Below are positions 2,825-13,163 of a stretch of DNA of 64,000 nucleotides, in pieces. The notes beneath the pieces were generated by a model. It worked only from the letters and a program-made list of their open reading frames with translations. It searched no databases and was not told where the DNA came from. Numbering within the stretch: the stretch's first letter is position 1; each line of letters opens with the position of its first letter. Position numbers and translations under genes: made by a program. The DNA is from Streptomyces flavochromogenes (GTDB taxonomy: Bacteria; Actinomycetota; Actinomycetes; Streptomycetales; Streptomycetaceae). The stretch is taken from contig NZ_JNZO01000002.1 in assembly GCF_000717595.1 (NCBI RefSeq), positions 124,001 through 188,000 on the forward strand, in the 5' to 3' direction.

Positions 2825-3883
2825 ATGAGCAGCTCACTCGACGTCGTCGTGATCGGCGGTGGCCAGGCGGGACTCGCGGCCGGATACCACCTGCGTCGCC
2901 TGGGCGGCCTCGACTTCGCCGTCCTGGACGCTCACCCCGCGCCGGGAGGGGCCTGGCAGCACGCGTGGGACTCGTTGCACCTCTTCTCGCCGGCCGCGTA
3001 CTCGTCCCTGCCCGGTCGCCTCATGCCGCCGCAGCAGGGGGAGACGTACCCCGAAGCCGCGCACGTCGTCGACTACCTGACCGACTACGAGCAGCGATAC
3101 GAGCTCCCCGTCCACCGGCCCGTTCGCGTTCAGGCCGTCCGCCGCGACGGCGCGCACCTTCGCGTGGAGACCGACTCCGGTACCTGGCGCGCCCGCGCCG
3201 TCGTCAGCGCCACCGGAAGCTGGTCACGACCGTTCCTCCCCGCCATCCCCGGCCGTGACGCGTTCCAGGGGCGGCAGCTCCACACCGTCGAGTACCGCAC
3301 CCCGGGCGAGTTCGTCGGAATGCGGGTCATCGTCGTCGGAGGCGGGAACTCCGGAGCTCAGGTCGCTGCCGATCTCGCGTACGACACCGACCTCACCTGG
3401 GTCACCCAGCGCCCCGCGCGGTTCCTGGCCGACGACATCGACGGCCGTGCCCTCTTCGATCACGCCACCGCCCGCCGCCGTGCCCTCGATGAAGGCCGCA
3501 CCGACGGCGGGGGAGTCGCTTCGCTCGGTGACATCGTCGCCGTACCGCCTGTCCGAGAAGCCCGCGATGCGGGCCTCCTCAAGGCGCAACCGATGTTCAC
3601 GCGTGTGACGGGGACCGGCGTCGAGTGGGCTGACGGTACGCGGGCCGAGGCCGACGTGATCATCTGGTGCACAGGCTTCCGACCTGCTCTCGCTCACCTG
3701 GCCCCGCTCGGGCTCCGCGGTCCTCGCGGACACATCCCCACCCGGGGAACGGAGGCTGTCGGAGAGCCTCGACTTCATCTGCTCGGGTACGGCGACTGGA
3801 CCGGGCCCGCCTCGGCCACCCTTGTCGGCGTCGGCCGTCCCGCCCGCGAAGCCGCGCGGGCCGTCGCTGCGCTTCTGCGATGA
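2825..3883 (+). CDS. arsO: Flavin-dependent monooxygenase-like ArsO
   Basis: Probable FAD/NADPH oxidoreductase of the ArsO type found in streptomycete arsRBOCT operons, where its exact reaction is unsettled. Visible motifs in 352 residues: N-terminal FAD loop GGGQAGLAAGYHL, the ATGSWSRP linker, a second dinucleotide loop VVGGGNSGAQVAADLA in the middle, and CTGFRP near the C-terminus. This order fits the flavin monooxygenase/ArsO/YpdA-like group. The ATG follows GGGAAGTCGGAGAG at good spacing. It lies 75 bp behind arsB with a hairpin between them, so it may be made at a lower level. Role in arsenic handling follows from context. Confidence 0.85.
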   Translation: MSSSLDVVVIGGGQAGLAAGYHLRRLGGLDFAVLDAHPAPGGAWQHAWDSLHLFSPAAYSSLPGRLMPPQQGETYPEAAHVVDYLTDYEQRYELPVHRPVRVQAVRRDGAHLRVETDSGTWRARAVVSATGSWSRPFLPAIPGRDAFQGRQLHTVEYRTPGEFVGMRVIVVGGGNSGAQVAADLAYDTDLTWVTQRPARFLADDIDGRALFDHATARRRALDEGRTDGGGVASLGDIVAVPPVREARDAGLLKAQPMFTRVTGTGVEWADGTRAEADVIIWCTGFRPALAHLAPLGLRGPRGHIPTRGTEAVGEPRLHLLGYGDWTGPASATLVGVGRPAREAARAVAALLR

Positions 3884-4352: not shown

Positions 4353-4362
4353 CCTCTCAGGT

Positions 4363-4776
4363 TCAGCGCGTCGGCGCCGCGTCCATCTCCACGATGAGAT
4401 TCTCGACGAGGCGTCTGATGGCGTCGCGGATGGGGCGCACCGCCTCCACGCCCTGCCCGGCGGGGTCGTCGAGCTTCCAGTCGAGGTAGCGCTTGCCAGG
4501 GAAGACCTCGCAGGTGTCCCCGCAGCCCATCGTGACGCACACGTCCGACTCGCCGACGGCTTCCGTGGTGAGGATCTTGGGGACCTCTGCGGAGATGTCG
4601 ATGCCGACTTCGCGCATCGCTTCGACCGCAGCCGGATTCACCGCCGAAGCCGGGGCGGAGCCCGCCGAACGGACCTCGATCCGGTCGCCGGCCAAGTGAC
4701 GAAGCCATGCGGCGGCCATCTGGGACCGGCCGGCGTTGTGAATGCAGACGAACAGGACAGAGGGCATCCGGGACAC
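4363..4776 (-). CDS. arsC: Second arsenate reductase (ArsC)
   Basis: A 137-residue paralogue of the protein at 868-1287 with the same CIHNAGRS loop (C11 to R17), RSAGS segment and GCGDTC pair. It reduces arsenate to arsenite. It is divergent from an arsR (4864-5172) across 87 bp, repeating the arsC/arsR arrangement at 868-1667, but has no reductase gene behind it. The two arsC/arsR pairs appear to be copies of one ancestral unit that have diverged moderately. The ATG is preceded by an AGGTGTCCCGG ribosome-binding region. Confidence 0.94.
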   Translation of the reverse strand: MSRMPSVLFVCIHNAGRSQMAAAWLRHLAGDRIEVRSAGSAPASAVNPAAVEAMREVGIDISAEVPKILTTEAVGESDVCVTMGCGDTCEVFPGKRYLDWKLDDPAGQGVEAVRPIRDAIRRLVENLIVEMDAAPTR

Positions 4777-4863
4777 CTACGTCTCCTCAAATGGGTTGCG
4801 GTGCAAGGGGGTTGAGAATCTGGTGGTTGACACTGGTTGTGCTCGGTGTGCCACGATCGGGCC

Positions 4864-5172
4864 ATGCTGACGTCGGTGAACGCGGAACTACTGAGGGCCC
4901 TGGCGGACCCCCTGCGGCTTCGCATCGTGTGCCTGCTTGCCCGCGAGTCGCTGTGTACGACTCACCTCGTCGAGGAGACGGGCGCGCGGCAGACGAACCT
5001 GTCGAACCATCTCCGGGTTCTCCGGGAAGCGGGCGTCGTGGAGACCGAGCCCTGCGGGCGTTTCACCTACTACCGGCTGCGTCCCGAGGTGCTGACCGAC
5101 CTGGCCACGTTCTTCGGTGGTTTGGCCGACGGGGGATGCGAAGCCTCTACACCCCGGCGGCCTTGCGGTTGA
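4864..5172 (+). CDS. arsR: ArsR-family repressor, paralogue of the first
   Basis: Start set at ATG 4864 and not the upstream in-frame ATG at 4837, because MLTSVNAELLRALADPL then aligns with the start of the first regulator and both genes become exactly 309 bp. The same unusual cysteines are present (LCTTHL and EPCGRF), with NLSNHLRVLREAG as recognition helix. It probably controls itself and the divergent arsC. A TTGACA hexamer (4827-4832) lies 32 bp upstream of the ATG and could be the -35 box. Confidence 0.92.
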   Translation: MLTSVNAELLRALADPLRLRIVCLLARESLCTTHLVEETGARQTNLSNHLRVLREAGVVETEPCGRFTYYRLRPEVLTDLATFFGGLADGGCEASTPRRPCG

Positions 5173-5757
5173 AAGCGCGGCCGCTTCTCCATCGGAGCGC
5201 CCGTGTCGTCTCGACGTTCACTCACCCGTGACCTCGCGGGCTGCGGATCGCGGTCCGTGCGCGAAGGCTATCCTCTCCCCGCCTCTCTGGCGACCCTGGT
5301 GCGGGTGGCTTGATCGCCTCGGCAACCACGCGGAGGAGATTGGAATCAGAGTCGTCCGCCAGGTCTGAAAAATCGATAGTCGCCGATCGACTCTACCGCG
5401 CGTCTCGCGATCCAGGCGTCATCGCCCAGCCCTGGAGGCGGAAATCCGTCAGAGACCCAAGGCGCGTGGGCGCTCTTGGTCCTTACCGGTCTCATCTGTA
5501 TGAACACCCACCCGGGGTAACCTGAGCGGCTAGCGCAAGAACCCACAGAGGTGGGCGAATCGGGGCAGTCGTGCCGTGTGGCGGTGGCGTCCGCCAAGGG
5601 GTGACCTTTCGGCTATTCATCGATCTATTGACATACATCGCTTAACGCTGGCAAGGTTCCGGCCGTCGGCCGACAGCGCCGTTGCCGACCTGGGCCCTAC
5701 CCCGTTCCGTCGGCCGGCCTCGGCCCCGACCACACGTCGACACAAAGGTTTCCCATC
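5173..5757 (+). other. 585-bp intergenic region, no supported gene
   Basis: No convincing coding frame is seen here: codon third positions lack the expected G/C bias, and parts are richer in A/T than their surroundings. The right part holds the promoter/operator candidate for the ATP-grasp/mtn operon listed separately. The lower GC may mark a junction between two arsenic modules. Confidence 0.6.
5616..5656 (+). promoter_or_regulatory. Candidate promoter with ArsR-like box for ATP-grasp/mtn operon
   Basis: A perfect TTGACA (5628-5633) is preceded by TCTAT, just as in the ArsR-type operators at 15344 and 15988, and is followed by ATCG. A weak -10-like CAAGGT lies 18 bp downstream. The partial match to the dyads at the arsI operon suggests arsenic-responsive control of the downstream six-gene operon; this is inference. 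Confidence 0.45.
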
Positions 5758-7020
5758 ATGGCCGCCACGCCCCACGCGCAGTCGTCCAACACCGAGGCAC
5801 CGGTCCTTCTCCTCATGGGCAGCGGCGACCGCCGCTACCGGGAGTACATCGTGGCGGCCGTCTCCCGCCACTTCCGCCTGTGGCTCCTCGACGCCCACGA
5901 GCCGAGCTGGCAACTGCCGTACGTGGAGGGGACCACGCTCCTCGACACCAAGAACCTCGACGAACTCCTGGTCGAGGCGAGGAAGATCATGCAACAGCTG
6001 CCCGTTGCGGGGGTCTTCACCTACGACGAGTCCCTCGTGCACGCCGCCGCGCGACTCGCCGAAGCCCTCGGGCTGCCCGGAAGCGCGCCCGACGCGGTGC
6101 TCGCCTGCCGCGACAAGGCGACCACCCGGGCGCGGCTGACGGCAGCCGACGTGCCACAGCCGGCCTGCACCGCGGTCTCCACGGCGGCCGAGGCACGTCG
6201 TGCGGCCGACGCGACCGGCTATCCCGTGGTGGTCAAGGCCCGTGGACTCGCCGGCAGCCTCGGTGTCGTCCGGGCCGACCACGGCGACGCCGTCGAAGCG
6301 GCCTTCGAGGCGGCCAGCTCCGCCAACTGGCCCGGAGTACCCCGCTACGAGGCCGACGTCCTGGTCGAGGAGTACCTCACCGGCCCCGAGATCAGCATCG
6401 ACGCGGTTGTCGTCGAAGGCGTGTGCACCCCGATGATCGTGGCGCGCAAGCAGGTCGGCATGGACCCGTACTTCGAGGAGACCGGCCACACGGTCGACGC
6501 CGCTGACCCCCTCCTCCAGGACGCTGAACTCCTCGACCAGCTGCACCGCATCCACAAGGCGCTCGGCTTCGAACACGGCTCCACGCACACGGAGTTCAAG
6601 CTCACCCCCAAGGGGCCCCGCCTCGTAGAGATCAACGCTCGCCTCGGCGGCGACTTCATCCCCCTCATCGGAATGCTCGCCACCGGGACCGACCCCGCCG
6701 TCGCAGCCGCCCACGTGGCGGCCGGACTCGTCCCCGACACCGCGCCGAAGGCGCAGAAGACCGCGGCCATCAGGTTCCTCTACCCGGAGCGCGACTGCGA
6801 GGCGGTCGAAGTGACCGTCCGCACCGACCTCTTCGGGCCGACGGTTCACAGCGCGGTCGCGACGGCCGGCCCCGGCACCCGGCTCGCCCTCCCGCCCCGG
6901 GCGTACATGAACCGGTACGGCTATGTCATCGCCGTCGGCGACGAGCACGAGCAGGTGACCGCCGACGTGGAGGCGGCTCCCACCCTGGTCGAACTGCGGG
7001 CTCGTCCCCTGACCGGCTGA
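5758..7020 (+). CDS. ATP-grasp domain carboxylate-amine ligase
   Basis: ATP-dependent ligase of the ATP-grasp superfamily (420 residues), the fold of dipeptide ligases, carnosine synthase and biotin carboxylase. The N-terminal domain (about 1-120) is a pre-ATP-grasp fold with MGSGDRRYREY. The grasp domain carries GYPVVVKARGLAGSLG, VLVEEYLTGPEISIDAVV and the metal-binding segment PRLVEINARLGGDFIPL. Substrates cannot be told from sequence; an amino acid or an amino-acid-like arsenical are possibilities. It is the first gene of an operon with five MTA-salvage genes (58-bp gap to mtnA) inside an arsenic island. The ATG has an AAAGG 9 bp upstream. Confidence 0.85.
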   Translation: MAATPHAQSSNTEAPVLLLMGSGDRRYREYIVAAVSRHFRLWLLDAHEPSWQLPYVEGTTLLDTKNLDELLVEARKIMQQLPVAGVFTYDESLVHAAARLAEALGLPGSAPDAVLACRDKATTRARLTAADVPQPACTAVSTAAEARRAADATGYPVVVKARGLAGSLGVVRADHGDAVEAAFEAASSANWPGVPRYEADVLVEEYLTGPEISIDAVVVEGVCTPMIVARKQVGMDPYFEETGHTVDAADPLLQDAELLDQLHRIHKALGFEHGSTHTEFKLTPKGPRLVEINARLGGDFIPLIGMLATGTDPAVAAAHVAAGLVPDTAPKAQKTAAIRFLYPERDCEAVEVTVRTDLFGPTVHSAVATAGPGTRLALPPRAYMNRYGYVIAVGDEHEQVTADVEAAPTLVELRARPLTG

Positions 7021-7077
7021 CCGGCTGACCGTCAGACCGACCGGTTCCACCTTTCAGGCCCCAAGGAGCCGCCGCCC

Positions 7078-8103
7078 GTGAGCAAGCCCTCCGATCAGCC
7101 GTCACTGCGCTGGGACGACAACGCGATCGTCACCCTCGACCAGCGCGCGCTGCCCCACGAGCGGCGGTTCCTGCACCTGAGCACTGTGGACGACGTCGTC
7201 ACCGCCATCACGACCCTCGCAGTACGGGGCGCCCCCTCCATCGGTCTCGCGGGGGCCCTGGGCGTCGCGCTCTCGGCGTACGCCCACTGCTCGCAGGGCA
7301 GCACCGGCGACGGGCATGAGGCCGTGCGAGCCGACGCGCATCGGCTCGCCGCCGCGCGCCCGACGGCCGTCAACCTGGCCTGGGCCGTCGACCGGGCTCT
7401 CGCAAGGCTCGATGATGGTCCGGACGCGGTCCTGGCCGAAGCCACCGCCATGATCGACGAGGACCTGGCGGTCAACCGGCAGATGGTCGCCCACGCCGTC
7501 CAGGCGGTACGGGACCGCTGCCCGCAGCGGTCCCTGCGGCTCCTGACCCACTGCAACACCGGCCGGCTCGCGACCGCCGCCGTGGGTACGGCCCTCGGCA
7601 CGATCCTCGCGCTCGCCGACGCCGGAAGGGTCACCGAGGTCCTCGTGGACGAGACCCGACCGCTCCTGCAAGGAGCCCGGCTGACGGCCTGGGAACTGGC
7701 CGAAGCCGGTGTGCCGCACCGCGTGTGCGTCGACAGCGCGGCCGCCGCGGCCATGAGCCAGGGGCTCGTCGACTGCGTCCTCGTCGGAGCCGACCGCATC
7801 ACCGCGCGCGGGGACGTGGCCAACAAGATCGGCACCTACGCGCTGGCGATCGCCGCCGCCCACCACGGCATCCCGTTCATCGTCGTCGCCCCCGAATCGT
7901 CCTGGGACAGGTCCCTCGCCGACGGCCGGGACATCGTCATCGAGGAACGCGCCGACGACGAGGTGACCTTCTACGGCGGGACCCGCACCACCCCGCTCGG
8001 TACACGCGCGTACAACCCCGCCTTCGACGTCACCCCCGCCTCCCTGATCTCCGCCATCGTCTCCGAGCACGGTGTCCACCACGCATCCGAGGTGAGCGCA
8101 TGA
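7078..8103 (+). CDS. mtnA: Methylthioribose-1-phosphate isomerase
   Basis: Second step of MTA salvage: converts 5-methylthioribose-1-phosphate to methylthioribulose-1-phosphate. The 341-residue protein shows the family features RGAPSIGLAGALG near the N-terminus, LTHCNTGRLAT with the catalytic cysteine, and VLVGADRITARGDVANKIGTY with the catalytic aspartate. It is related to eIF2B-type proteins but the MtnA-specific motifs are all present. GTG start with AAGGAG nine bases upstream. Its TGA overlaps the mtnB ATG. Confidence 0.95.
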   Translation: MSKPSDQPSLRWDDNAIVTLDQRALPHERRFLHLSTVDDVVTAITTLAVRGAPSIGLAGALGVALSAYAHCSQGSTGDGHEAVRADAHRLAAARPTAVNLAWAVDRALARLDDGPDAVLAEATAMIDEDLAVNRQMVAHAVQAVRDRCPQRSLRLLTHCNTGRLATAAVGTALGTILALADAGRVTEVLVDETRPLLQGARLTAWELAEAGVPHRVCVDSAAAAAMSQGLVDCVLVGADRITARGDVANKIGTYALAIAAAHHGIPFIVVAPESSWDRSLADGRDIVIEERADDEVTFYGGTRTTPLGTRAYNPAFDVTPASLISAIVSEHGVHHASEVSA

Positions 8104-8792
8104 CCTACGCGCCGTCCACCGCCGCCGGCAAGCAGACCGCCCAGCAGCTGGCCGACATCTCCCGCACCCTGTACGAGCGCGGATGGATGCCGGGCACCTC
8201 CGGCAACATCTCCATGCGGCTGCCCGACGAACCCGGCCGCGCGCTGATCACGGCGAGCGGCCGGGACAAAGGCGAACTGACCGCCCGGGATGTCGTCGAG
8301 GTCGCCGCCCGCACCGGCCAGGCGTCCCATCCCGGCCAGGACCGCCCCTCGGCGGAGACGTGCATCCACGCGGCGATCTACCGCGTCACCGGAGCCCGCG
8401 CTGTCATCCACGTCCACTCCCCGTACGCCACCGTTGTCGCCCACAGTGCCGCTGCCCGGGACGCTGTCACCTCGGTCCGAGTGGAGCGCTTCGAGCTGCT
8501 CAAGGGCTTGGGGCTGAAGGATCCGACCTTCGCGGACCTGCCGGTGTTCCCCAACTGGCCCCAGGTCGACCGGATCGCCGACGACGTGGCCGCCCACCTC
8601 ACGGCGGACCGGGACGGCCCGCCCGGGCTCCTCCTGGCCGACCACGGCATCACCGCGTGGGGCGACTCGCTGGGCCAGGCCAAGAACCGGCTCGAGTGCC
8701 TCGAATCGCTCTGCCAACTGCTCGTGCTCTCCCACGCCGAGCTGCATGTCTCCCGTGCCGCGCAGGCACCCGACCACAGGACCGCGCCATGA
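8100..8792 (+). CDS. mtnB: Methylthioribulose-1-phosphate dehydratase
   Basis: Class II aldolase-type zinc enzyme that dehydrates methylthioribulose-1-phosphate to the diketone DK-MTP-1-P. Seen in 230 residues: WMPGTSGNISMR near the N-terminus, a SAETCIHAAIYR stretch, the zinc histidines in VIHVHSPYAT, and a later LLLADHGITAWG with the third histidine. ATG at 8100 overlaps the mtnA stop (ATGA), and its own stop overlaps mtnD the same way, so these genes are translationally coupled. Confidence 0.94.
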   Translation: MTYAPSTAAGKQTAQQLADISRTLYERGWMPGTSGNISMRLPDEPGRALITASGRDKGELTARDVVEVAARTGQASHPGQDRPSAETCIHAAIYRVTGARAVIHVHSPYATVVAHSAAARDAVTSVRVERFELLKGLGLKDPTFADLPVFPNWPQVDRIADDVAAHLTADRDGPPGLLLADHGITAWGDSLGQAKNRLECLESLCQLLVLSHAELHVSRAAQAPDHRTAP

Positions 8793-9364
8793 CACTGCTG
8801 CAGATCATGCCGGACGACGCGCCGGACACCGTCCTGCTCCGCACCCGCGACGAGGACGCCATCGCGCAGGCCCTGCGCGAACGGTCGGTCTCCTTCACTC
8901 GTTGGCCGCAGCGCGCAGAGGTGACTCCGCAGACGACGTCCGAGGAACTGCTCGACGCCTATCGGTCGGAGGTCGACGAGCTGTGCGCCGACCAGGGGCT
9001 GCGCCTTGTCGATGTGGCCCGTCTGCACCCAGAGGAAGGAGCGGAGTGGCAGGAGCGTGCGGCCAAGGCACGCTCGACGTTCCTCGACGAGCACCGGCAC
9101 GCCGAGGACGAGGTCCGGTTCTTCGCCCACGGCACCGGCTGCTTCTACCTGCACCTCGACGACCGCGTGTACGCCGTGGTGTGCGAGGCAGGTGACCTTC
9201 TGTCGGTCCCGGCCGGCACCCGGCACTGGTTCGACATGGGTCCGGTACCGGACTTCTGCGCCATCCGGTTCTTCGAGAAGGAGGACGGCTGGGTGGGCGA
9301 CTTCACCCAGGAGCCCATCGCCGAAGGCTTCCCCCGCCTCGACGCGCTCCTTGGGGAAGGCTGA
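8789..9364 (+). CDS. mtnD: Acireductone dioxygenase
   Basis: Cupin metalloenzyme that oxidises acireductone to 2-keto-4-methylthiobutyrate and formate (Fe form), the last oxidative step before transamination to methionine. The 191-residue protein has the metal ligands in EHRHAEDEVRFF (H-x-H and E) and in AGTRHWFD (H), as in the ARD family. Listed here before mtnC although the pathway order is the reverse. 4-bp overlap with mtnB and 1-bp overlap with mtnC. Confidence 0.95.
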   Translation: MTLLQIMPDDAPDTVLLRTRDEDAIAQALRERSVSFTRWPQRAEVTPQTTSEELLDAYRSEVDELCADQGLRLVDVARLHPEEGAEWQERAAKARSTFLDEHRHAEDEVRFFAHGTGCFYLHLDDRVYAVVCEAGDLLSVPAGTRHWFDMGPVPDFCAIRFFEKEDGWVGDFTQEPIAEGFPRLDALLGEG

Positions 9365-10146
9365 TGCCGGGCAGCCGACGGGCCCGCGTTCCCGAGATCG
9401 GGCTGCGGGCCGTCGTGCTCGACATCGAGGGAACCACCGGCTCCCTCAGTCACGTACGGGAAGTTCTCTTCCCCTACGCGCGTGAGCGGCTTGCTCCCTG
9501 GCTCGCCGCTCGCCGCGGCACCGCCCCCTGGCGGCAGATCCTCGACGCGGTCACCGCATACACCGGGGAGGCCCAGGACGAGGCGAGCGCTCTGGCGCTC
9601 CTGGAGCAGTGGGCCGATGCCGATGTGAAGGCGCCGCCCCTAAAGACGCTGCAGGGACTGATCTGGTCCGGCGGCTACGCTGCGGGCGAGTTGCACGGTC
9701 ACGTGTACCCGGACGTGCCGCCCGCACTCGAGTACTGGCAGACACAGGGAACGGGCCGCTTCATCTACTCCTCCGGCTCTGTTGCCGCCCAGCGGGACTG
9801 GTTCGGCCACACTGCCCACGGCGACCTGCGTCAGCTGCTCGACGGCTACTTCGACCTGACGACGGCCGGCCCCAAGGCGGACGCCGACTCCTACCGTGCG
9901 ATCGCGGCGGAGCTGGGGCACGCACCCGCCGACCTGCTGTTTGTCAGCGACGTCGGTGCCGAGCTCGACGCCGCGGCCGAGGCCGGCTGGCAGACGGTGG
10001 CCGTGCGCCGCCCCGACGACGAACGCGCGGCAGTGACAGGCCACGAGGCCGTCGCCTCTCTCACCCCACTCGTTCCCCGACCCGGCCAGGGCAGCTCCAC
10101 GGCCCTGGTCGACACGCAGACGCAGGAGGACCCAGACGATGAGTGA
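9364..10146 (+). CDS. mtnC: Enolase-phosphatase E1
   Basis: HAD-superfamily bifunctional enzyme that enolises and dephosphorylates DK-MTP-1-P to acireductone. The nucleophile motif reads VVLDIEGTTGS (residues about 17-27), the second motif is FIYSSGSVAAQ, and LLFVSDVGAELDAAAEAG is the Mg-binding motif. Length (260 residues) is a little above the family norm because of a polar C-terminal tail. It starts one base inside the mtnD stop and overlaps mtnP by 8 bp. Confidence 0.93.
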   Translation: MPGSRRARVPEIGLRAVVLDIEGTTGSLSHVREVLFPYARERLAPWLAARRGTAPWRQILDAVTAYTGEAQDEASALALLEQWADADVKAPPLKTLQGLIWSGGYAAGELHGHVYPDVPPALEYWQTQGTGRFIYSSGSVAAQRDWFGHTAHGDLRQLLDGYFDLTTAGPKADADSYRAIAAELGHAPADLLFVSDVGAELDAAAEAGWQTVAVRRPDDERAAVTGHEAVASLTPLVPRPGQGSSTALVDTQTQEDPDDE

Positions 10147-10960
10147 TCCGTCCGACTCGGCGCCGAAGGCCGACATCGCGGTCATCGGCGGCAGCGGCTT
10201 CTACGAACTCCTGGAATCGGTACAGCGCGTCGAGGTCACCACCCCGTACGGCGCACCCTCCGACGCGGTGTCCGTCGGCACCGTGGGCGACCGCAGAGTG
10301 GCCTTCCTGCCGCGGCATGGCAGCCACCACGAACTCCCCCCGCACCGCATCAACTACCGTGCCAACATGTGGGCCCTGCGCTCGCTGGGAGTACGGCAGG
10401 TCCTCGCCCCCTGCGCCGTCGGCTCGCTGCGCGGTTCTCTCGGCCCCGGCAGCGTCGTCCTCCCCGATCAGCTCGTCGACCGGACCGCCGGCCGCGCACA
10501 GACGTACTACGAGCACGGCGCGACCCACGTGTCGTTCGCCGACCCGTACTGCGCGTCGGGCCGCGCGGCCGTGCTCAAGGCCGCGGGGGAGGCGGGCGCC
10601 GACGTCCACGACGGGGGAGTGATGGTGGTCGTCGAAGGCCCCCGGTTTTCCACCCGGGCAGAGTCCCAGTGGTACGCCTCGGCAGGCTGGTCCCTGATCA
10701 ACATGACTGGACACCCCGAAGCCGTACTCGCCCGTGAACTCGCCCTCTGCTACACCTCCATAGCCCTGGTCACCGACTACGACGCGGGTGTGGAGCACGG
10801 AGAAGGCGTCTCGCAGGACGAGGTGTTCCGTGTGTTCGCGGCGAACGTGGAACGCCTGAAGGGCCTGGTCCTGAAGACCGTCGACGTCCTGGAGCGCGAG
10901 CGGGCCTGCGCGTGCGCGACGGCGCTGGACGGGATGGACCTGCCGTTCGAGCTCCCCTGA
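10139..10960 (+). CDS. mtnP: 5'-Methylthioadenosine phosphorylase
   Basis: Phosphorolyses MTA to adenine and methylthioribose-1-phosphate, feeding mtnA directly, which explains the absence of a methylthioribose kinase. The 273-residue protein carries IAVIGGSGFYELL, the phosphate-binding LPRHGSHHELPPHRINYRAN, the VVEGPRFSTRAE segment and INMTGHPEAVLARE, where the purine site lies. It could be read as a purine nucleoside phosphorylase, but the Asn/Met/Thr site and the operon favour MTA. Last gene of the operon, ended by a strong hairpin. Confidence 0.93.
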   Translation: MSDPSDSAPKADIAVIGGSGFYELLESVQRVEVTTPYGAPSDAVSVGTVGDRRVAFLPRHGSHHELPPHRINYRANMWALRSLGVRQVLAPCAVGSLRGSLGPGSVVLPDQLVDRTAGRAQTYYEHGATHVSFADPYCASGRAAVLKAAGEAGADVHDGGVMVVVEGPRFSTRAESQWYASAGWSLINMTGHPEAVLARELALCYTSIALVTDYDAGVEHGEGVSQDEVFRVFAANVERLKGLVLKTVDVLERERACACATALDGMDLPFELP

Positions 10961-11007: not shown

Positions 11008-11041
11008 ACTGATGCCGGTCACCGTGGTGACCGGCATCAGT
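11008..11041. terminator. Bidirectional terminator between mtnP and arsN1
   Basis: Perfect inverted repeat of 16 bp with a 2-nt centre, 47 bp after mtnP and touching the last base of the leftward arsN1 stop. It can end transcription in both directions. Confidence 0.8.
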
Positions 11042-11553
11042 CATTGGACCACCGGGCTACGGCGCTCCACCAGCAGGACGTCGCGCCAGACGCCGTGGTG
11101 GCGGGCCACGCGCTCCCGACGGCCCAGCACGCGGAATCCCGCGGACTCGTGCAGGGCCAGGCTCGCCACGTTCTCGGGAAAGATGCCGGCCTGGACCGTC
11201 CAGATGCCCGCCTTCTCCGTGGAGTCGATCAACGCCTCCAGAAGCGCGCGCCCCACGCCGGCTCCGCGCGCCGCGGGACTGACGTACACGGAGTGCTCGA
11301 CGACCCCCGCGTAGGCGGGACGAGCCGAGACGCGGGACACCGCCGTCCAGCCGACGACCCGCCGTCGCGGGTCGAGCGCCACGAGCCGGTGGGCCGGCAG
11401 CTTGGAGGTGTCGAAGACGCTCCACGGCGGTGCGACCGTCTCGAACGTGGCGTTTCCCTCGTCGATGCCCTGCTGGTAGATCGCCATGACGGCGGACGCA
11501 TGGTCGTCGGTCATGGGGGCGAGAGCGATCGTGGTGCGTCGGGGTGTGGCCAT
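11041..11553 (-). CDS. arsN1: ArsN1-type N-acetyltransferase
   Basis: GNAT acetyltransferase of 170 residues in the phosphinothricin acetyltransferase-like group. Seen: IYQQGIDEGNATFET near residue 30, VSARPAYAGVVEHSVYV in the middle (substrate segment and beta-4), the acetyl-CoA loop RGAGVGRALLEAL, and the C-terminal ARHHGVWRDVLLVERRS typical of ArsN/PAT proteins. ArsN1 enzymes are known to acetylate the amino group of arsinothricin, an arsenical glutamate mimic. Assignment to ArsN1 and not Bar/PAT rests on family resemblance and the arsenic island. A terminator lies between it and arsP upstream, so it may have its own promoter. A broken second copy of its 3' end is at 14016-14093. Confidence 0.82.
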   Translation of the reverse strand: MATPRRTTIALAPMTDDHASAVMAIYQQGIDEGNATFETVAPPWSVFDTSKLPAHRLVALDPRRRVVGWTAVSRVSARPAYAGVVEHSVYVSPAARGAGVGRALLEALIDSTEKAGIWTVQAGIFPENVASLALHESAGFRVLGRRERVARHHGVWRDVLLVERRSPVVQ

Positions 11554-11670: not shown

Positions 11671-12786
11671 TCAGAGAATCGCCAGCGAGACCAGGCCGAT
11701 GCCCACGCTGCCGAGCAGGCCCACGCCGAGGTAGAACGCGAAGACCTTCGCCTTGACGACGCTCTTGACGGCCACCATCGCCGGGATCGTCGTGATGGCA
11801 CCGCCGAGGAGGAAGGTGACACCCGCGGCAGCGACCATGCCTTGGTCCAGGAGGCCCTCGACGACCGGGATCGCACCGACGCCGTTGAGGTAGAGAGGGA
11901 CGCTGATGAGCCCGGCGACCAGGACGGAGAGGACGCCGTCCGTGCCCAGGATGCCCGACACGACGTCGGTGGGCACGTAGCGGACGATCAGGGCTTCGAG
12001 GACGATGGCGAGCAGCAGCCACTTGCCCAGGATCAGCGAGTCGCTGACGATCTCCTTGAGGATCTCGCCGGCGCGCAGGTTCTTGATGTCACGCCGGACG
12101 AGCACACGCCACGGAGTCCCGTCGTCGTCCTCGTCGTCCCGTGCGGCGGTGGAGCAGCCTCCTGCCGCGGGCGCGGGCTCCTGTGCGGCACCTCCGCAGC
12201 CGCCCTCGGACGTGCCGCCGACGCCGCCACCGACAGTCACTGGCTCGGGCACGGTCGCCTTCGCCGTGGAGCATGCCGTCTCGGGAACGGTCACCGTCTC
12301 CTGAGAGCAGGTCTTCGCGGGCTTCTTCTCCTCGGTGGAGTCGAGCAGCGGATCCGCGAAGCGCCCACGCCGTTCGAGCGCCAGGACGATGAGACCTGCG
12401 CCGAAGCTCAGCACCAGGGCGCCGATGAGGCGAGCCGTGGCGATGGGGAGACCGAGCTGAGCGGCGGAGAGCGCGTAGATCTCCGGGTCCATGGAGGGGG
12501 AGGCGATCCAGAACGACATGACCGCCGAGAGCGGGACGCCGGCTATCAGGAAGCGGCGGATCAGGGGGATCACAGTGAAGGAGCAGAAGGGGCTGAACGC
12601 TCCGATGGCCGTGACGATGGCGATGCCGAGGATGCCCCTGCGCCCGTGGGCGAAGCTGCGGCGCGCAACCACGTCGATCGACAGACGCTGTACGGCGATC
12701 CCCAGGACGATGGCGACCAGGAACCACGGGAGATAGTGCAGCACCTCGAACAGGATGAACCGGCCAAGGGCCAGCAATTCGTCCAC
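11671..12786 (-). CDS. arsP: ArsP-family permease
   Basis: Multi-spanning permease (371 residues) of the ArsP/DUF318 type. Characterised ArsP members export trivalent organoarsenicals such as methylarsenite and roxarsone(III). Hallmark FSPFCSFTVIPLIRRF with C68, and GGAITTIPAMVAVKSV late in the protein. Between the two membrane halves (about residues 135-210) is a soluble loop unusually rich in Cys, Gly and Glu/Asp, including TCSQE, TACS, GGCGG and GGCS. Start is GTG at 12786, behind AGAGAGG; an open frame continues further upstream but lacks a matching start and crosses the operator. Related SO_0444-type permeases move Cu/Zn, so substrate is inferred from the island. Confidence 0.88.
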   Translation of the reverse strand: MDELLALGRFILFEVLHYLPWFLVAIVLGIAVQRLSIDVVARRSFAHGRRGILGIAIVTAIGAFSPFCSFTVIPLIRRFLIAGVPLSAVMSFWIASPSMDPEIYALSAAQLGLPIATARLIGALVLSFGAGLIVLALERRGRFADPLLDSTEEKKPAKTCSQETVTVPETACSTAKATVPEPVTVGGGVGGTSEGGCGGAAQEPAPAAGGCSTAARDDEDDDGTPWRVLVRRDIKNLRAGEILKEIVSDSLILGKWLLLAIVLEALIVRYVPTDVVSGILGTDGVLSVLVAGLISVPLYLNGVGAIPVVEGLLDQGMVAAAGVTFLLGGAITTIPAMVAVKSVVKAKVFAFYLGVGLLGSVGIGLVSLAIL

Positions 12787-12891
12787 AGGTGAACCTCTCT
12801 GAGACGGTGACACATGAGGGGGAGCGGCGCCGTGAAGGGGCGTACGGGGGACGTGGCGAGCCGCGTGGGGAGGCTCGATCGGCATCCCCTT

Positions 12892-12908
12892 TATCGAATA
12901 TCGATGAT
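12892..12908 (-). promoter_or_regulatory. Operator-like dyad upstream of arsP
   Basis: TATCGA-ATA-TCGATG lies about 106 bp upstream of the arsP GTG in an A/T-richer patch. Its half-sites match those of the dyad in front of the arsR at 13186, suggesting one regulator for both directions. Confidence 0.45.
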
Positions 12909-13163
12909 AGACGATTAAAGAGATGCCCGGCAATGGGGATCCGAGGTCCCTCGTCGCGCCGAAGAAGCCCGCCCTGCGCTTCCGGTGGCGGTTGCCGGGA
13001 AGTGAGCCTTGTTCCCAGGTCGCACTGGCGTGGCTACCTTCCATGTGGTGTCTACACAGTCGCTCACGCCCGCAGTCTCGGGCGCGCCTGTGGCGCTGGC
13101 GGGCCTCAGCGGGCCCTCCGCAGGCCCCATCTGCGTGGAGCGAACCTTGCCGTCGCGGGTGGT

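Follow-up and report, generated by a model that had tools for sequence, protein, structure and literature searches.

A candidate ArsL-type organoarsenical island in Streptomyces flavochromogenes that carries a methylthioadenosine salvage operon and an ATP-grasp ligase

Why should genes for the salvage of 5'-methylthioadenosine (MTA), preceded by a gene for an ATP-grasp ligase, lie in the middle of an arsenic island? The question is raised by a locus of Streptomyces flavochromogenes in which the order over positions 5758-10960, all on the + strand, is ATP-grasp ligase, mtnA, mtnB, mtnD, mtnC and mtnP, flanked by arsenic (ars) genes. Positions refer to the window, the whole stretch of 64,000 nucleotides that was analysed, which comprises bases 124001-188000 of contig C2 (NZ_JNZO01000002.1) of an 8.88 Mb genome. 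We consider it probable that these genes form the second of two co-regulated operons in an island for ArsL-type organoarsenical biosynthesis, in which MTA is recycled and an arsenical amino acid is ligated. Gene content, linkage, a shared upstream element, co-occurrence and predicted folds were observed; from these we infer how the genes are regulated, what each enzyme catalyses and what is made.

Two operons and their common upstream element

A preliminary description of the window had proposed a coupled operon of these six genes, and the reading frames and family matches bear it out.

5758-7020, + strand: ATP-grasp ligase, L-amino acid ligase type by fold (Pfam ATP-grasp_4 55 bits, cut-off 27)
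7078-8103, + strand: mtnA, methylthioribose-1-phosphate isomerase (TIGR00512 393 bits, cut-off 279; sole match in the genome)
8100-8792, + strand: mtnB, methylthioribulose-1-phosphate dehydratase (TIGR03328 167 bits, cut-off 137)
8789-9364, + strand: mtnD, acireductone dioxygenase (Pfam ARD 101 bits, cut-off 27; sole match in the genome)
9364-10146, + strand: mtnC, enolase-phosphatase (acireductone synthase) (TIGR01691 238 bits, cut-off 128)
10139-10960, + strand: mtnP, methylthioadenosine phosphorylase (NF005876 445 bits, cut-off 306; TIGR01694 306 bits, cut-off 275)

From mtnA onward the genes are joined by four overlaps, and 57 bp separate the ATP-grasp gene from mtnA. The MtnP, A, B, C and D set of the MtnC type of methionine salvage is complete in the operon. 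No gene for the final transaminase was seen in the operon or among the annotated genes, the whole window and genome not having been searched for one. The assignment of mtnD comes via Pfam ARD only, as no NCBIfam match was obtained; its ATG is at 8789, and the family searches ran from 8774, five codons upstream. A second mtnP over the cut-off lies in the same genome at C5:215440.

An ArsL gene, predicted to lie left of position 1, was found there. Among 19 matches in a search of the genome for radical S-adenosylmethionine (SAM) enzymes was one at C2:119130, and the corresponding gene (C2:118602-119852) lies to the left of the window, with its end 4.1 kb away, and exceeds the curated ArsL cut-off (NF040542, 489 bits; cut-off 450). 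The protein contains the CX3CX2C motif (CHHKCTYC) and a C-terminal RCCVKC. On the same strand 3' of arsL follow genes for a FemAB-fold protein, a CobW GTPase that contains a CxCC motif and a methyltransferase resembling ArsM, and after these an arsR and, on the opposite strand, a thioredoxin reductase gene. The FemAB-fold protein has 420 residues with Acetyltransf_6 and FemAB_like domains; a search of PDB sequences gave no match for it, and structure comparison places its tandem GNAT fold nearest to aminoacyl-tRNA-dependent synthases.

The two operons share an element upstream.

5615-5640, + strand: 26-bp element ATTCATCGATCTATTGACATACATCG, putative ArsR operator/promoter, an imperfect dyad over a TTGACA box

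The dyad has the structure CGATCTAT-TGAC-ATACATCG and is a candidate site for ArsR binding. An identical copy begins 138 bp before the arsL start, and the regions preceding arsL and the ATP-grasp gene can be aligned over about 170 bp. When window positions 5600-5757 were searched against the genome, the query itself was returned, followed by the region upstream of arsL (89% over 99 bp, E 1e-30); beyond these, nothing below E 0.007 appeared among the 40 scored of 138 first-look candidates. The 26-bp core is perfect before arsL in all 11 distinct genomes (15 rows, four genomes appearing twice). Before the ATP-grasp gene, 24-26 of its 26 positions are matched in 10 of 12 cases checked, a count that leaves out L030, where the ATP-grasp gene is matched in three pieces and the stretch starts only 614 bases upstream of that gene.

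In the remaining two cases, ISL-100 (L026) and G179 (L066), the element occurs only once, before arsL, and in both the genes form a run in one direction: arsL, FemAB-fold protein, cobW, arsM, PiT-like transporter, arsR, ATP-grasp ligase and mtnABDCP. In G179 the ArsR and ATP-grasp genes are fused into one frame of 544 residues (L066:9299-10933), and four such fusions occur among the 120 homologues listed. Presumably, ars resistance genes came to lie within what had been a single ancestral unit, and its control region was copied.

Distribution of the ligase and of the mtn genes

ArsL exceeds the cut-off in 10 of 392 genomes of the genus, and the ATP-grasp ligase, at an identity of at least 71%, is present in exactly the same 10, with the two genes 4.8-10.1 kb apart. 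A chance neighbourhood was ruled out by this overlap, the probability of which would be about 5e-20 if the genes were independent, a figure that relatedness raises. A scan of the genome collection gave 11 ATP-grasp loci, all in ars islands; arsL was seen in nine, and the stretches of the other two stop before the arsL position. A ligase found mostly away from ars genes, or a genome devoid of ArsL, would have spoken against the preliminary description, and neither is the case. The expectation that ligase and mtn genes recur together beside ars genes stood for the ligase (11 of 11 loci) and only in part for the mtn genes, which lie 3' of it in eight of the 11 loci (they are absent in L027, L028 and L030) and also occur elsewhere as mtnABDCP alone.

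In a search of 396 genomes of the phylum at E 1e-60, the sole ArsL over the cut-off was that of S. flavochromogenes itself; 20 other genomes match at 209-303 bits, below the cut-off, and these matches are probably CUAEP-type relatives. ATP-grasp and FemAB-fold matches apparently share 17 contigs (paired by size; 120/120 and 119/120 listed rows) versus 0.27 by chance, which suggests, and does not prove, that the two genes are linked across homologues.

Outside Streptomyces, 17 plasmid records carry an ArsL-like gene at E 1e-20. All 17 neighbourhoods were read, with flanks of 9 kb (four records), 5.5 kb (five) or 4.5 kb (eight); many of the records are near copies. Annotated ATP-grasp and GTPase genes stand beside 15 of the 17 (Priestia 7, Alicyclobacillus 1, Pantoea 6, Klebsiella 1), in Bacillota and Gammaproteobacteria; the GTPase is named a GTP-binding protein in 14 and a cobalamin biosynthesis protein in one. 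Neither gene accompanies the arsQ-arsL-arsM genes of Pseudomonas amygdali or the Thermomicrobium match, which is a CUAEP-tail protein and not ArsL. Comparison of three plasmid loci with the island by BLASTP gave identities of 35-36% for ArsL, 37-43% for the GTPase and 26-32% for the ATP-grasp protein. Across three phyla, then, the ligase and the GTPase recur beside ArsL, and the mtn genes do not.

Several side observations concern these loci. On a Klebsiella pneumoniae plasmid typed as conjugative (L115) the order is ArsL-like, ATP-grasp, major facilitator superfamily (MFS) transporter, ArsM, GTPase and aquaporin. A PiT-like phosphate transporter, which might bring in arsenate, lies in the ArsL run of L026 (8487-9569, by eye) and L066 (10942-12117) and near the Priestia ArsL (L107:12653-13795), the L066 copy being 33% identical to that of Priestia. 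Cys-Cys pairs are found at or near the ends of the FemAB-fold and ArsM-like proteins and of small proteins in Priestia, Alicyclobacillus and Pantoea (for example L010:15883-17145 and proteins of L107-L109), and possibly hand over As(III).

Island mtn genes, by the coordinates of mtnA and mtnD, occur in eight of the 10 ArsL genomes. Acireductone dioxygenase is encoded in 75 of the 392 genomes: in eight of the 10 with ArsL, at island coordinates, versus 67 of the 382 others (Fisher p 4e-5, relatedness uncorrected). A tree of concatenated mtn sequences (21 sets, LG+G4) places the ten island sets apart from the eleven others (ultrafast bootstrap 100); L027, L028, L030 and others devoid of the genes were left out, and seven of the 21 sets lack mtnP. 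Because the island sets split together, losses of the island mtn genes look secondary. Independent recruitment of mtn in G179 was considered and is not favoured, as the island mtn genes group together.

Several facts weigh against a dedicated recycling role. The ArsL genomes G304 and G370 have no island mtn genes and are not among the 342 genomes in which any match to mtnA was obtained, no annotated mtn genes surround the 17 plasmid ArsL-like genes (the gene table being incomplete), and mtnP of ISL-100 (L026:14380-14885) is matched only in two pieces, with 61% covered. That gene and the ATP-grasp gene of L030 (S. wedmorensis, 615-1518), likewise piecewise, may be decaying or misassembled. Only three of the 10 ArsL genomes have a further mtnA, located elsewhere than in the island (second match, E 0.001), versus 329 of the 382 others with one over the cut-off (334 at E 0.001), and the same mtnABDCP order is also found away from ars genes. 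Together with the lack of any other match to mtnA and mtnD in the S. flavochromogenes genome, these last observations favour the alternative that the mtn genes are the general methionine salvage of the strain, placed in the island by chance or as a selected mobile module and serving MTA from polyamine or other sources. We regard this as unlikely, since the element upstream of arsL is repeated before the mtn operon, arsL and mtn stand in one run in diverged islands, and G065, G085 and G179 keep the island mtn genes despite a further mtnA match. As mtn is missing in two of the 10 ArsL genomes and unannotated around the 17 plasmid genes, it appears to be accessory, and the ligase the more conserved partner.

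Operons with the order mtnA-B-D-C away from ars genes were seen in other Streptomyces at L087, L089, L092, L093, L094, L095 and L096, with mtnP in L087, L089, L092 and L093. The operon of L087 has a SAM synthetase gene at its head and PALP and DUF364 genes near, that of L089 stands behind a single-module nonribosomal peptide synthetase (NRPS) gene (L093 looks alike), and that of L092 stands behind polyketide synthase and AMP-ligase genes. Possibly, mtn genes serve secondary metabolism as a portable module for its by-products.

Proposed pathway and the role of the ligase

In the proposed pathway, arsenite would release the ArsR repressor at the shared dyad and both operons would be turned on. 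ArsL would transfer the 3-amino-3-carboxypropyl group from SAM to As(III), with (hydroxy)arsinothricin and MTA as the products. MtnP, A, B, C and D, the established aerobic salvage, would convert MTA to ketomethylthiobutyrate, from which a general aminotransferase would form methionine and in turn SAM, so that MTA is removed and its sulfur kept. Since salvage rebuilds the methionine backbone from ribose, the methylthio group would cycle and the carbons of the arsenical would come, in net terms, from the ribose of ATP. Aminocarboxypropyl transfer as the chemistry of ArsL is given in the main text of PMC8552651, in which neither "MTA" nor "methylthioadenosine" was found; that MTA is left over follows from the chemistry of SAM.

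The usual by-product of radical SAM enzymes, to which ArsL belongs, is 5'-deoxyadenosine, and a dihydroxyacetone phosphate shunt from 5'-deoxynucleosides is described (PMC10986504, PMC12632272). That MtnP, A and B act on 5'-deoxyadenosine instead of MTA is nevertheless very improbable, as the operon includes mtnC and mtnD, whose steps at the end of the pathway are specific to the methylthio compounds, and the main text of PMC8552651 proposes that ArsL forms an aminocarboxypropyl radical, not a 5'-deoxyadenosyl one.

For the arsenical amino acid, the ATP-grasp enzyme would activate a carboxylate and form an amide between it and another amino acid, and the FemAB-fold protein may add a second amide from an aminoacyl-tRNA. 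The scheme is least certain where the ligase is assigned the arsenical amino acid as its substrate. The nearest fold to the ATP-grasp protein, along nearly its whole length, is that of an L-amino acid ligase with its ATP-grasp domain. Among the best 25 of 31 NCBIfam models none exceeded its cut-off (top PRK02186, 178 against 625 bits), and the models of L-amino acid ligases were not passed (LAL_C2 25.7 against 29.4, BacD model 65 against 850, DdaF 45 against 840 bits). The predicted protein is best taken to work like an L-amino acid ligase, not to be a member of that group.

Other results also count against the proposed chemistry. In the fold ranking 4dim, annotated as a phosphoribosylglycinamide synthetase, equals BacD. 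ATP-grasp relatives are present in 136 of the 392 genomes at E 1e-60, and in the twelve ATP-grasp loci retrieved at about 47-60% identity no arsL is seen, those of 54-60% lying away from it; because such relatives are common and away from arsL, the family is broader than arsenic and does not fix the substrate. In the FemAB-fold comparison, coenzyme A acetyltransferases appear from Foldseek rank 10. The ArsM gene that was sought left of the window was found in the arsL operon only as an ArsM-like gene, the product of which reached the cut-off of none of the ArsM models reported, arsinothricin ones included (NF040538 113 against 500, NF040539 58 against 240, arsenite methyltransferase NF008823 245 against 263 bits). 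According to the main text of PMC8552651, Burkholderia gladioli arsL and arsM alone yield arsinothricin in Escherichia coli, and neither mtn nor ligase is therefore required for arsinothricin itself. As a side observation, G290 has a second ATP-grasp gene (C11:31070-32311, L067), 60% identical, with aminotransferase and MFS genes in the stretch and no island ars genes.

The fold says only that the enzyme is a carboxylate-activating ligase, and the island is rich in resistance genes; the ligase might instead make a protective, As(III)-binding dipeptide or thiol peptide and not act on an arsenical amino acid. This alternative seems doubtful, if somewhat less so than a general salvage role of mtn, as the ligase tracks ArsL, the one arsenic gene against which its presence was counted, in exactly 10 of 392 genomes, and a related ligase stands beside ArsL on plasmids of Bacillota and Gammaproteobacteria. 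Returning to a ligase that acts on the arsenical, there is about an even chance that the loci represent a widespread cluster class, of which no report was found in the open-licence PMC literature, making peptide-masked arsinothricin, in which the ArsL product is capped by the ATP-grasp ligase (in actinobacteria also by an aminoacyl-tRNA-dependent FemAB-fold enzyme), the CobW GTPase assists, and Streptomyces adds the loop from MTA to methionine.

Flanking arsenic genes and known systems

The arsenic genes described on both sides of the operon were confirmed, with ACR3, ArsO, ArsI (202 bits, cut-off 116), ArsP_1 and ArsR-type matches over their cut-offs.

868-1287, - strand: ArsC-like arsenate reductase, first copy (below equivalog cut-off, named by similarity)
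3' of the first arsC, - strand, leaving the window leftward: thioredoxin reductase gene (TIGR01292 382 bits, cut-off 343)
1664-2749, + strand: ACR3 arsenite efflux protein (TIGR00832 440 bits, cut-off 283)
2825-3883, + strand: ArsO flavin monooxygenase (NF040505 558 bits, cut-off 425)
4363-4776, - strand: ArsC-like arsenate reductase, second copy (below equivalog cut-off, named by similarity)
4837-5172, + strand: ArsR-family regulator closest to the ATP-grasp operon (NF033788 87 bits, cut-off 55; scanned from 4864)
11041-11553, - strand: ArsN1-like N-acetyltransferase, possible self-resistance (NF040503 124 bits, cut-off 170; named by similarity)
11671-12984, - strand: ArsP-family permease (Pfam ArsP_1 139 bits, cut-off 32)

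Both ArsC proteins score 80-91 bits against equivalog cut-offs of 158-215, and six ArsR-type genes, including one to the left of the window, exceed the NF033788 cut-off. The divergent arsC-arsR pair occurs twice (865-1624 and 4360-5129) with DNA 72-82% identical, a local duplication. An ArsN1 gene had been described as the next gene after the operon; an ArsN1-like gene is indeed present there, but its score falls under the cut-off of the ArsN1 model.

If the proposal is correct, Streptomyces has an arsinothricin-type pathway that includes enzymes for peptide formation, and the by-product of aminocarboxypropyl transfer is recycled by genes within the biosynthetic cluster itself. The trio of ArsL, ATP-grasp protein and CobW-type GTPase in three phyla yields a testable prediction of a new family of arsenical peptides. 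In the open-licence PMC literature (subscription papers being outside the scope), nothing was found that joins arsinothricin with ATP-grasp or methylthioadenosine, ArsL with radical SAM and arsenic appeared only in the B. gladioli paper, and no mention of RCCLKC was found.

The arsQML genes of B. gladioli GSRB05 (main text of PMC8552651) resemble the present locus in that an ArsL radical SAM enzyme and an ArsM-type methyltransferase lie in an arsenic island. The ATP-grasp ligase, CobW GTPase, FemAB-fold protein and mtnABDCP are additions here, the ArsM fails the arsinothricin ArsM models, and no ArsQ exporter is among the annotated genes, although no search was aimed at it. Methionine salvage with MtnC is represented here by MtnP, A, B, C and D in one operon, which differs in having no transaminase gene and in its apparent arsL control. 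Phosphinothricin tripeptide (bialaphos) carries a toxic glutamate analogue in a peptide; the likeness is that such an analogue is possibly carried in a peptide here too, and no NRPS is among the genes annotated. The FemAB-fold protein is by fold nearest to tRNA-dependent synthases such as the aminoacyl-tRNA-dependent peptide synthases Sbb17/Sba18 and FemX. With the L-amino acid ligases BL00235 (3vot), BacD/YwfE and RizA the island ligase has its fold and ATP-grasp domain in common, and it differs from them in sequence (about 14-22% identity), in its arsenic operon setting and in being sometimes fused to ArsR. Actinomycetes were long known for simple methylated arsenicals only, until bisenarsan (PMC12159101). 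The bisenarsan (bsn) cluster of Streptomyces is likewise one of arsenic secondary metabolism; according to the same paper its C-As bond is formed without SAM enzymes, whereas ArsL is the candidate for that step in the present island.

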